From assembly GCA_025462725.1 (NCBI GenBank), contig JAOAPE010000008.1, positions 310,001 through 374,000 on the forward strand: a stretch of 64,000 nt of DNA, in the 5' to 3' direction. The DNA comes from Terriglobales bacterium. Its GTDB lineage: Bacteria > Acidobacteriota > Terriglobia > Terriglobales > Acidobacteriaceae. The translations under genes were made by a program, and so were the position numbers. The notes beneath the pieces are model-generated. The model had not been told where the DNA came from. It did no database searches and saw only the letters and a program-made list of their open reading frames with translations. Of the stretch, positions 5,262-8,365 are shown piece after piece. Positions within the stretch are counted from its first letter, which is position 1, and every line of letters begins with the position of its first letter.

Positions 5262-6692
5262 ATGGGCACACCAGGGATCCAACTCGAACTGCACTCCATG
5301 CAGGCGGAGAAGCGCCAAGTCGCCCTCAACTCCGTGTACGTGGCTGTAGTAATTACGGTGCTCAAGTTGTTGGTCGGATATCGCACGGGCAGCTTGGGAA
5401 TCCTCTCGGAGGCGGCGCACTCGGGATTAGACTTCATCGCCGCGTTCATCACGCTCCTCTCCGTGCGCGTCTCAGATAAGCCTGCTGACGCTGATCACCA
5501 ATACGGACACGGCAAAGTCGAAAACTTCTCCGCATTCATCGAGACTGGATTGCTGCTGGTCACATGCGTCTGGATCGTCTGGGAAGCGGTCAAGAGACTT
5601 ATGTTCCACGAAGTCCACATCGATCCCACAATCTCGGCGTTCTTGGTGATGTTCCTGTCGATGGTGCTTGATGTGTGGCGCTCGAGGAAGCTGAAGAAGA
5701 TCGCCAACAAGTATGAAAGTCAAGCTCTGGAAGCGGACGCGCTCCACTTCAGCACAGACGTGTGGTCGAGCGGGGTGGTCATCATCGGACTGGCGCTGGT
5801 CTGGGCGGCCGAGCGTTTCCATATTGCCGGACTAACCAAGGCCGATCCCATCGCTGCGTTAGTAGTGGCAATGATAGTCGTCTACGTTAGCTCGCGTTTG
5901 GCGCGGCAGACGATTGATGCGTTGCTGGATGCGGCGCCCGCGGGAATCCGCGCCGACATTATTGAGCGAGTATCGAAAGTAGAAGGTGTGCTCGAAGTGG
6001 ATCGTGTGCGAATCCGGCGAGCCGGGAACCGATATTTCGTGGAAGTCTCCATAGGACTGGCACGGCGAGTCACCTTCCAGCGATCCGAGCAGGTGGTTGG
6101 CGATGTGACGAAGGCTATTCATGCCATCTTGCCCAATGCCGATGCGACCGTGCGTTCGATTCCCCGGGCATCGGGTGAGGAAAACATATTCGACCGGATA
6201 CGTGCGGTGGCGTCGCGAAGCAATTACAGCGTCCACGACGTGAGCGTGCAGGACTTGGGTGGCCGATTGCTCGTGGAACAACACCTTGAACTCGACGAGC
6301 AGCTCACGTTGAAGAAAGCGCACGATGTAGTTACCCGACTCGAAGCTGAGATCCGCGCTGAGGTTCCGGAGATTTCTTCAATCCTCACTCACATCGAGAG
6401 CGAGCCAAACACGATCGAGACCGGCGATGCGGTAATCCAAGACAAAGTGCTGGTGCAAAAGTTGCGAAAGACGGTCTCTGAATTTCCGGAGATCATTGAC
6501 GTGCATGATGTTGTGATCAAGAAAGTGCGCGACCTGATTTACCTGTCGTGCCACTGCACGATGGCCGACGATTTGCCGCTATCGCGCGTGCATGACATCT
6601 CGACGGCGCTGGAAATCCGGTTTAAGCAAGAAGCTCCAGAACTGTTCAAAGTCTTGATCCACACGGAACCGCAAACGGACAATACAAGGTGA
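5262..6692 (+). CDS. Cation diffusion facilitator (CDF) efflux transporter with three C-terminal domains
   Basis: Divalent-metal/proton antiporter of the inner membrane, probably exporting Zn, Fe, Co or Mn. The membrane part covers about residues 20-215 with CDF metal-site pairs H53/D57 (AHSGLD) in TM2 and H162/D166 (HFSTD) in TM5, plus the DHQYGHGK loop at 78-85. Usual CDF proteins end after one cytoplasmic dimerisation domain (about 300 residues in total). This one has 476 residues and three successive domains of similar pattern at roughly 226-302, 308-381 and 395-470. The next gene (OsmC) starts 4 bases after its stop, so they are cotranscribed. The ATG start at 5262 has only a weak ribosome site. 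Confidence 0.9.
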   Translation: MGTPGIQLELHSMQAEKRQVALNSVYVAVVITVLKLLVGYRTGSLGILSEAAHSGLDFIAAFITLLSVRVSDKPADADHQYGHGKVENFSAFIETGLLLVTCVWIVWEAVKRLMFHEVHIDPTISAFLVMFLSMVLDVWRSRKLKKIANKYESQALEADALHFSTDVWSSGVVIIGLALVWAAERFHIAGLTKADPIAALVVAMIVVYVSSRLARQTIDALLDAAPAGIRADIIERVSKVEGVLEVDRVRIRRAGNRYFVEVSIGLARRVTFQRSEQVVGDVTKAIHAILPNADATVRSIPRASGEENIFDRIRAVASRSNYSVHDVSVQDLGGRLLVEQHLELDEQLTLKKAHDVVTRLEAEIRAEVPEISSILTHIESEPNTIETGDAVIQDKVLVQKLRKTVSEFPEIIDVHDVVIKKVRDLIYLSCHCTMADDLPLSRVHDISTALEIRFKQEAPELFKVLIHTEPQTDNTR

Positions 6693-6696
6693 GACG

Positions 6697-7098
6697 ATGT
6701 TGATTTCTGAAGTTCAATGGATTGACGGCGAGCGATTCGTCGGAATTGGAACGAGCAAACACGCGATGGTGATCGACTCGGATCGCAAGAGCAACACTGG
6801 CCCTGGCCCGATGGAGCTTGTGCTAACAGCTCTTTGTGGGTGCACTGCGACGGACGTCCTTTCCATCCTGACGAAGAAGCGGGAGCCATTCACCAGCGTG
6901 CGAGTGCGCGCGGAAGCGGAACGGGCGGCTGAGCCTCCAACGGTTTACACATCAATCAAGCTGATTTACTCGGTAGGCGGCAAAGTCACGAAGAAGGCCG
7001 TCGAAGATGCAGTGCGGCTATCGAAAGAAAAGTACTGTTCCGTTTCTCAGATGTTACAGAAGACAGCAAAGATCACTGTTGAGATAGAGTACGTTTAA
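6697..7098 (+). CDS. OsmC/Ohr family thiol peroxidase-like protein
   Basis: 133-residue OsmC-fold protein. Family members reduce organic hydroperoxides with a pair of cysteines, or have related redox roles. The first conserved Cys region is LTALCGCTATDV, with Cys47 and Cys49. The second is KYCSVSQML with Cys114 at the start of the C-terminal helix. GPGPMELVL precedes the first helix as in YhfA-type OsmC proteins. It follows the CDF gene by 4 bases and precedes the UGA-containing glutaredoxin by 35 bases, suggesting a shared redox/metal-stress unit. The extra Cys47 two residues before the usual site is unusual, but I cannot assign a role. Confidence 0.85.
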   Translation: MLISEVQWIDGERFVGIGTSKHAMVIDSDRKSNTGPGPMELVLTALCGCTATDVLSILTKKREPFTSVRVRAEAERAAEPPTVYTSIKLIYSVGGKVTKKAVEDAVRLSKEKYCSVSQMLQKTAKITVEIEYV

Positions 7099-7133
7099 AA
7101 TATTGGTAAGTTTTATATACGGGAGCCCGAAAG

Positions 7134-7373
7134 ATGACAGAAAAGATCGTGATGGTTTTTAGCCAGCCGGGCTGACCGCCATGCCAATGGGCAGAAGCCT
7201 ACCTCTCGGAGAGAGGGATTCCATTTCAATTGCGAGATGTTAGTTCTGATTCCGACGCGGTTCGCGACCTCGTAGGGAAGTACAAGAGCCGATCGACTCC
7301 CACCATCGTGGTCGGTGAAGAGGTAATGATCGGGTTCGACCCCGATCGTCTTGAGAAGATGCTGGCCAAGTGA
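7134..7373 (+). CDS. Glutaredoxin-like candidate selenoprotein (UPPC active site, in-frame UGA)
   Basis: Seen in sequence: from the ATG at 7134 a 79-codon frame runs to TGA at 7371-7373, broken only by TGA at 7173-7175 (codon 14). With Sec there, the active site reads QPGUPPC, i.e. U14 and C17, exactly where glutaredoxins and NrdH proteins have CxxC. Downstream features are glutaredoxin-like: WAEAYLSERGIPF, the cis-proline segment RSTPTIVVG and the ending GFDPDRLEKML. A GGGAG ribosome site (7121-7125) lies 8 bases before ATG. A hairpin candidate for SECIS follows the UGA. Family knowledge: bacterial Sec glutaredoxins with Cys homologues exist. Inference: this is a thiol-disulfide or peroxide-linked reductase working with the OsmC neighbour. 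The alternative is a nonsense mutation, less likely given perfect conservation on both sides. Confidence 0.85.
7202..7216 (+). promoter_or_regulatory. Candidate bacterial SECIS hairpin
   Basis: CCTCTC-GGA-GAGAGG forms a perfect 6-bp stem with a 3-base apical loop. The loop begins 32 bases after the in-frame UGA at 7173-7175 and carries G in its first two positions. Those are the loose features known for bacterial SECIS elements bound by SelB (apical loop about 16-37 bases after the UGA, small loop with an early G). The element lies inside the coding sequence (codons for LSERG). Confidence 0.6.
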
Positions 7374-7387
7374 GCTGAGCGGCGGAT

Positions 7388-8365
7388 TTGCAGAAAGAAC
7401 AACATCCAATCCGGGGATATCTGCTGATCGCGGCCGCTTCGTTCTGCTATGGCGGCTCCGCCACATTGGGCAAAGCTGTTTTTCGCGGAATGCTCGCGCA
7501 ACGCGATGCTGCGCTTCCTCAAATTGACGCGCTGATCCTGGCACAGGCGCGCTCAACACTATCGTTACTCATTCTGATCCCAATCCTGCTTGCGTGGCGC
7601 GGACGGAAATCGCTGCTGCTGTCGCGGGCAGACGTACTGCGTTGCATGCTCTTAGGAATCATGGGAGTGGCAGCATCCAACTTTTTCTACTACTACGCAA
7701 TCGACAAGACAAGCGTGGCAACGGCGATCATCATTCAATACACGGCTCCGGTGTGGGTGCTGTTCTACATGGTGTGGCGGAAGATACAACGCGCGACCCT
7801 CCAGAGAACGATGGCAGTCGTACTCGCGTTCGTGGGCAGCGCTTTATCGATAGGAATCGTGGGCGTCACGGGTGCCTCACCCTTTATTCACGTGATCGGG
7901 ATCAAGTTGAATGCGCTGGGAGTAGGCGCAGCGCTGATGGCAGCGTTCTCTTTCGCGTTTTACAGCACCTTCGGACAATTCATGGTCACTCGGCACGACC
8001 GCTGGAAGGTGATCGCTTACGCCATGATGGGAGCGGCAATATTCTGGATGGTGATCAATCCGCCGTGGAAGATCATTGCTGCTCATTATTCCCGCGAGCA
8101 GTGGATATTCCTGCTCGTCTTTTCCATCGCATCCATGCTGTTGCCGCTATCACTCTATTTCGCTGGATTGCAGCAACTCGATGCTACGCGGGCTATCGTC
8201 ACCAGTTGCCTGGAGCCAGTGTTCGCGATCCTCTTCGTTGCAACGTTCGTTCACGAATCGTTGGGGGCAATTCAGATGGTAGGGATATTTGTCGTGCTGG
8301 CCGCGTCTGTGGTGGTGCAGTTGCCTGAGCGGAGTTCCACAGACGCGATCTCGCAAACTGCTTAG
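7388..8365 (+). CDS. EamA/DMT-superfamily permease
   Basis: 325-residue inner-membrane protein with about ten hydrophobic segments in two EamA repeats. The first repeat starts at YLLIAAASFCYGGSATLGKA, and its end has YYYAIDKTSVATAIIIQYTAPV. The second starts near LGVGAALMAAFSFAFYSTFG and ends with the TRAIVTSCLEPVFAILF block typical of the family. Members export amino acids, metabolites or drugs; the substrate is unknown here. The start is TTG at 7388 with GGCGGA just before it, which is tight, so the exact start is uncertain. It lies 14 bases after the seleno-glutaredoxin and may belong to the same transcript. The stop overlaps the convergent MFS gene by 4 bases. Confidence 0.85.
   Translation: MQKEQHPIRGYLLIAAASFCYGGSATLGKAVFRGMLAQRDAALPQIDALILAQARSTLSLLILIPILLAWRGRKSLLLSRADVLRCMLLGIMGVAASNFFYYYAIDKTSVATAIIIQYTAPVWVLFYMVWRKIQRATLQRTMAVVLAFVGSALSIGIVGVTGASPFIHVIGIKLNALGVGAALMAAFSFAFYSTFGQFMVTRHDRWKVIAYAMMGAAIFWMVINPPWKIIAAHYSREQWIFLLVFSIASMLLPLSLYFAGLQQLDATRAIVTSCLEPVFAILFVATFVHESLGAIQMVGIFVVLAASVVVQLPERSSTDAISQTA

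Follow-up and report, generated by a model that had tools for sequence, protein, structure and literature searches.

A predicted selenocysteine-encoding redoxin gene with a UPPC active site in a Terriglobales bacterium, and two positions of the SECIS hairpin among its relatives

Does the single TGA inside a short redoxin frame of a Terriglobales bacterium end translation, or does it encode selenocysteine (Sec)? The frame lies in the window, by which we mean the whole stretch of 64,000 nucleotides that was analysed. It runs from an ATG at 7134 through 79 codons to a stop, with the TGA of codon 14 as its sole internal stop (Table 1). When this TGA is taken as a residue, the product reads MTEKIVMVFSQPG-U-PPC..., a protein of 79 residues with a UPPC active site. 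An earlier, sequence-only reading of the window had described these coordinates and the frame, the lone TGA at codon 14, UPPC and the 79 codons, together with a GGGAG ribosome site, and each was found in the sequence as it had been given. The Pfam family Glutaredoxin (PF00462) matches the product at 1.9e-13, with 50.8 bits (cut-off 22.9); the criterion for glutaredoxin (Grx) selenoproteins, PF00462 over its cut-off plus UxxC, thus finds both of its marks here, the latter as UPPC.

The list of ORFs of at least 60 aa contains no plus-strand ORF across 7134-7373, so a plain ORF scan at such a length overlooks the redoxin gene. The earlier prediction that standard gene callers would cut or miss it therefore holds for this mechanical list, the one list compared.

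Four lines of evidence lead to a selenoprotein gene as the reading of this locus: a UGA at the catalytic Cys of relatives, selection past the UGA, a kept hairpin and the presence of the Sec machinery. On these grounds we are highly confident that 7134-7373 represents a functional Sec-encoding redoxin gene, and residue 14 of its active site is very likely selenocysteine.

Table 1. Features of the redoxin locus, all on the forward strand, with the evidence for each
Feature	Position	Strand	Evidence
CDF cation efflux transporter, conserved neighbour	5262..6692	+	PF01545 6.6e-45; beside 12/17 clade A TGA genes incl. own
OsmC-family protein, ends 35 nt upstream of redoxin gene	6697..7098	+	PF02566 5.5e-20; beside 13/17 clade A TGA genes incl. 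own
GGGAG, ribosome-binding-like sequence	7121..7125	+	Read directly; 8 nt before ATG 7134
Predicted UPPC redoxin (glutaredoxin-like) selenoprotein gene, 79 codons + stop	7134..7373	+	Pfam match, homologues, purifying selection past UGA
In-frame TGA, predicted Sec codon 14, first residue of UPPC active site	7173..7175	+	Aligned codon TGA 41, TGC/TGT 15, n=56 loci incl. own
Putative SECIS hairpin: 6-bp stem CCTCTC 7202-7207 / GAGAGG 7211-7216, apical loop GGA 7208-7210	7202..7216	+	Conserved stem; fits published bacterial model
EamA-family transporter downstream, a conserved neighbour, listed with a TTG start	7388..8365	+	PF00892 1.5e-34; beside 15/17 clade A TGA genes incl. own

Codon 14 and the downstream frame in relatives

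Homologues were sought in 399 genomes of the class at E <= 1e-6 and found at 56 loci in 54 of them; the other 345 genomes have none at this threshold. At all 56 loci the codon aligned to codon 14 is either TGA (41 loci in 39 genomes, spanning several families of the class) or TGC/TGT (15 loci in 15 genomes). For what follows, the TGA loci are divided into clade A, comprising the window's own locus, 15 from the same family and one from the same order (17 in total), and clade B, the other 24, which are more distant and belong to other families of the class (L047, L048, L052-L056, L058, L062-L064, L066, L067, L069-L079). Clade B motifs are UPPC, UPAC and U-M/I/L-FC, many being of the last kind, and one genome (G214) carries three TGA-containing redoxin copies (L054, L078, L079), one UPAC and two UMFC.

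Named genomes were scanned with two patterns, [TS]QPGCPPC and SR[SAC]TPT[ILV]V[IV]G, which bias the result to Cys forms; the scan gave 38 loci, 6 of them copies among the 56, and codon 14 is TGA at 15 and TGC/TGT at 23, again without exception. The 15 TGA loci come from records named Acidobacteria, Acidobacteriota, Acidobacteriaceae, Acidobacteriales, Terriglobia or Candidatus Angelobacter. Neither TGG nor CGA occurs at codon 14 among the 56 loci or the 38 named loci. The sequence-only reading had proposed aligning relatives for Cys or UGA at this codon, and homologues indeed read just TGA, TGC or TGT there. An in-frame UGA aligned with the catalytic Cys of homologues, a criterion for bacterial selenoproteins, is therefore seen at this locus.

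Past the UGA, dN/dS ranges from 0.07 to 0.22 in all six measurable locus pairs, a seventh pair being saturated in dS; the codons 3' of the TGA are under purifying selection. The decayed gene with TGG or CGA in other strains, which had been named as the outcome that would speak against a selenoprotein, was not encountered among these homologues. That a Cys codon was turned into TGA by mutation or sequencing error, with translation ending after codon 13, would account for the stop itself and might draw on the assembly being in 91 contigs, yet is extremely unlikely given that 39 of the 54 homologue-bearing genomes, from several families, have TGA at this codon, that purifying selection acts downstream in 6/6 measurable pairs and that the hairpin is conserved.

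Selenocysteine machinery and the decoding of UGA

The genome that carries the window (4.33 Mb, rated 100% complete, in 91 contigs) was searched with profiles family by family. It contains SelA (536 bits, cut-off 268), SelB (400 bits, cut-off 242), SelD (364 bits, cut-off 125) and a tRNA-Sec (65.6 bits, gathering score 47) to which ARAGORN assigns the anticodon TCA; ARAGORN identifies as tRNA-Ser a second match that barely exceeds the tRNA-Sec gathering score. The search for selA, selB, selC (tRNA-Sec) and selD that had been suggested as a check thus recovered all four, and with the complete set present, Sec insertion is expected to function in this organism.

The selD gene has an in-frame TGA of its own (L021, C4:41564-42499; KAAG-U-ASKLSP), followed by a hairpin with a GGC loop. 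One TGA is also found in 26 of 29 other selD loci, L134 having Cys there and L144 and L147 being partial matches. Judged by eye, a common stem with a GGN loop is present in 12 selD loci of clade A, the lowest-energy fold of L130 differing, and the loops of clade B selD loci are mixed.

Might the UGA instead be read as Trp, Arg or Gly, through a changed code or generic read-through? The frame is open when TGA is sense, as this would demand. Such decoding is nevertheless extremely unlikely: the gene's own terminator is TGA, homologues have no residue other than Cys at the site, and tRNA-Sec, selA, selB and selD are all in the genome. The pseudogene, recoded-UGA and plain-stop readings were rejected on the terminal TGA of the gene, the TGA/Cys codon alignment and the selection past the UGA.

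With selenocysteine as the favoured reading, a ribosome arriving at the UGA of codon 14 would meet SelB, which, carrying Sec-tRNA(Sec), would bind the GGA-loop hairpin and allow selenocysteine to be inserted. Translation would then terminate at the UGA at 7371-7373, and the product would be a 79-residue redoxin of thioredoxin fold with a Sec-Pro-Pro-Cys active site.

Across the genomes with homologues, selA at full strength (by E-value, counted by hand) is present in 38 of the 39 with the TGA form and in 8 of the 15 with the Cys form (Fisher p 2.5e-4, 54 genomes); the sole TGA-form genome without it, G354, is 61% complete. The 24 named genomes give 9/9 and 6/15, respectively (Fisher p 6.8e-3). 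In a kinship-aware test, in which well-supported branches carry 2 independent pairs, selA is the same in most pairings, and the association between selA and the Sec form does not survive once relatedness is considered. A selD match at 1e-40 was obtained in 29 of 30 TGA-form genomes searched, G166 (95% complete) being without one at this threshold. Two loci, L082 and L084, whose proteins are 75% and 71% identical to the window protein, have Cys though their genomes pass the selA cut-off, perhaps reflecting a switch between Sec and Cys that is recent and left the machinery in place.

Hairpins downstream of the UGA

According to the bacterial SECIS model, as set out in the portion of PMC13188914 available to us, the loop has 3-9 nt with G in the first two places, often then G or U, the stem has 4-16 bp, the spacing from the UGA is 16-37 nt and the MFE is at most -7.5. 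The hairpin in the window, whose loop is separated from the UGA by 32 nt (7176-7207), falls within these published limits, and a folding energy of -14.3 kcal/mol is obtained for the 42 nt around it. The 6-bp, GGA-loop hairpin that had been reported 32 bases past the UGA, in the SECIS window, is accordingly as described, the range of the model being 16-37 nt. Taken alone, this hairpin counts for little; 456 of 4577 (10%) in-frame codons in 13 genes of the window have a comparable 6-bp hairpin downstream.

What raises the hairpin above chance is the exact stem being kept in relatives. The complete stem is found at 15 of the 17 clade A loci, against 0.36 expected from synonymous codons with neighbouring codon usage, both this and the later expectation referring to stem positions that were picked from folds of the same loci; at the other two, one stem pair is missing. 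The loop is GGA, GGC or GGG in 17/17, and none of the 15 Cys loci has the stem. Paired cells make up 98.0% of the clade A stem, and double changes occur at 2 pairs, in 4 cells. Among 500 shuffles, none reaches the paired percentage, the number of double-change cells or the covariation score; for pairs with double changes 11 shuffles are as high, and for pair types 315. In the named genomes, the stem is present at 13 of 14 further clade-A-like TGA loci and at none of 23 Cys loci, these loci being partly non-independent. One codon of the 3' arm is AGA at 11 clade A loci, AAA at 4, AGG at 1 and CGG at 1, so that AGA or AGG is used at 12 of the 13 loci with Arg in this arm; in neighbouring ORFs, AGA and AGG together account for 9% of Arg codons.

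Clade B does not have this hairpin at any of its 24 loci. A different stem, of 7 bp, is complete at 19/24 (0.16 expected) and lies over the codons for KEFLS, with its loop 23 nt past the UGA, nine bases closer than in clade A. The loop is GUU at 22 loci and GUA at 2, and the loops of both clades follow the G[G/U] rule. Here, 97.0% of cells are paired and double changes occur at 4 pairs, in 9 cells; of 500 shuffles, none reaches the observed value for paired cells, double changes or covariation, and 7 reach it for pair types. The clade B stem is found at none of the 17 clade A and none of the 15 Cys loci. This clean split of clade A, clade B and Cys loci is clear and independent of how the stem positions were picked.

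Folding energy gives a less distinct picture. Compared with synonymous codons, the window's own locus is not unusual (z -1.14, p 0.13), and the mean z is -1.16 in clade A (p<0.05 in 3/17, L039 having p 0.99), -1.58 in clade B (11/24) and -0.10 at the Cys loci (1/15); this test is blunter than the exact-stem test. Its weakness, together with the 10% of ordinary codons that have a comparable hairpin downstream, is what speaks for regarding the hairpin as a by-product of the conserved LSERG codons, with Sec inserted via another element. Against this stand the 15/17 complete stems where the synonymous null predicts fewer than one, the favouring of the rare AGA codon and the absence of the stem from all 15 Cys loci, and we consider it very unlikely that the hairpin arose in this manner.

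A SECIS role for the hairpins being preferred, the GGN hairpin over the LSER codons in one clade and the GUU/GUA hairpin over KEFLS in the other imply that homologous Sec-redoxins use two coding stretches as SECIS; the different positions point either to a relocation of the element or to two origins of Sec. On balance, we favour two non-homologous SECIS in one class (GGN, 32 nt, LSER; GUU/GUA, 23 nt, KEFLS), even where both active sites are UPPC, produced by a jump of the SECIS or by Sec being gained twice at the same residue, with a loop that may follow the SelB preference of the lineage. The tree (80 columns, 88 rows) has 44 of its 85 inner branches open and contains 9 Sec/Cys changes, of which at least 2 are forced; it does not settle gain versus loss of Sec. 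Two SECIS positions and patchy Sec/Cys states within one class represent a natural series on the origin, movement and loss of SECIS, and the same series bears on whether the loop preference of SelB co-evolves.

Neighbouring genes, reductant and known systems

The gene order cdf-osmC-redoxin-eamA (window 5262-8365) is common to many members of the family, including three Cys forms. Neighbours were counted on the same strand within flanks of ~1-1.5 kb, shorter at contig ends. Within these flanks, osmC, eamA and cdf are each found beside none of the 24 clade B genes. Among the 15 Cys loci, L059, L061 and L068 keep osmC, eamA and cdf, and L057 keeps eamA. The OsmC-family protein scores 107.7 bits against NCBIfam PRK10738, below the cut-off of 138, and has two Cys in its sequence, which we take to be the catalytic pair. 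Electron transfer from the redoxin to thiol proteins is possible, and the OsmC-family protein encoded next to it is one candidate acceptor; we put this forward tentatively. As osmC stands beside 13 of the 17 clade A genes but has no match at L028, L030 and L031, where cdf and eamA flank the gene, OsmC as acceptor is a guess.

The nearest solved chains are 3zij (2.9e-23) and 3zit (8.1e-23), each of 78 residues, named thioredoxin and with CPPC, followed by two named Glutaredoxin, 7c10 (6.1e-18) and 7c12 (3.2e-16), and then by the Glutaredoxin 3 chain 4tr0 (5.7e-11), 12 orders weaker than 3zij. The best NCBIfam match is YruB TIGR02196 (GlrX_YruB), at 77.4 bits under its cut-off of 88.55, and the second is Uxx-star NF041212 (49.8 bits, 3.1e-13; cut-off 66), which matches 17/17 clade A members at 1e-5; GRX_bact reaches 31.8 bits against a cut-off of 90. 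The genome has no match for the two glutathione-synthesis families searched, PF02955 and PF04107, and it encodes a thioredoxin reductase (368 bits, over the cut-off). In its other two Glutaredoxin-family matches, L001 (C56) and L002 (C20), the active site starts with Cys (CGDC and CGDT).

These CPPC thioredoxin-like nearest chains, the lack of PF02955 and PF04107 and the presence of thioredoxin reductase suggest a protein that does not depend on glutathione (GSH), and reduction by thioredoxin reductase rather than by glutathione is probable from the sequence comparisons. The label 'glutaredoxin-like' given in the sequence-only reading is borne out by PF00462, although the protein is closer to CPPC/YruB-type redoxins needing no glutathione. 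A true selenoprotein that is nonetheless a glutaredoxin of the classical kind, dependent on glutathione as is the Clostridium oremlandii Sec-Grx cited in a review (PMC13188914), would fit the Pfam score, the matches to 7c10 and 7c12 and the description of Sec-Grx as GSH-using in part of that review. It would fit poorly with the lack of PF02955 and PF04107 matches, the two nearest chains being CPPC thioredoxin-like with 4tr0 far behind, and the low GRX_bact score; we regard it as unlikely.

UxxC glutaredoxin selenoproteins are known, and the window gene is a further member. Bacterial Grx selenoproteins with PF00462 and UxxC have been published (PMC1794560, PMC1088965, PMC13188914); in the sections of these sources at hand, they number 3 in a 2006 table and 10 in a Sargasso Sea table. 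Table 3 of 2006 (same set) places a glutaredoxin in Geobacter sulfurreducens, Alkaliphilus metalliredigenes and Moorella thermoacetica, and the 2026 review lists Grx selenoproteins with a biochemical reference (PMC13188914). For Acidobacteria, the 2006 table gives 3 selenoprotein families and 4 proteins (same set), and a 2025 deep-Sep paper, as far as its excerpt goes, three known selenoproteins in Occallatibacter riparius. No title or abstract opening in the literature searched on selenoproteins of Acidobacteria/Acidobacteriota, glutaredoxin and OsmC concerns this gene. As acidobacterial selenoproteins are counted without names and this literature is mostly at the level of listings, the gene may already figure among those unnamed. 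It adds a well-supported selenoprotein for Acidobacteriota, where few are listed, and this one is overlooked by a plain ORF scan.

Compared by description only, the window protein differs from published Grx selenoproteins in its UPPC motif, its low GRX_bact score and the lack of a match for two GSH-synthesis families in its genome, and resembles them in the Glutaredoxin domain, a UxxC near the N-terminus, a bacterial SECIS and Sec/Cys pairs among homologues. It is akin to the Uxx-star glutaredoxin-like (seleno)proteins of NF041212 as its second-best match, and unlike them in scoring under the cut-off. Its closest solved relative, 3zij, which aligns ungapped over residues 4-77 with CPPC against the UPPC of the window, is equated here with the Bacillus cereus CPPC thioredoxin BC3987 on the basis of a single occurrence of the term 3ZIJ in PMC3720550 and of matching residue numbers. 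As described in that paper, BC3987 is able to reduce class Ib ribonucleotide reductase and is related both to NrdH and to the Cp9/YruB redoxins, of which Cp9 is an electron carrier between thioredoxin reductase and peroxiredoxin; CPPC and a Leu/Met insert at position 44 are given as BC3987-like features (PMC3720550). The window protein shares with the BC3987/Cp9/YruB redoxins a Ser/Thr four residues ahead of the first active-site residue, and its Leu46, invariant in clade A, aligns with the Leu44 insert of BC3987. Unlike BC3987 and YruB, it has a predicted Sec in place of Cys, and whereas the Cp9 gene lies between those for thioredoxin reductase and peroxiredoxin, the window gene lies beside that for an OsmC-family protein.
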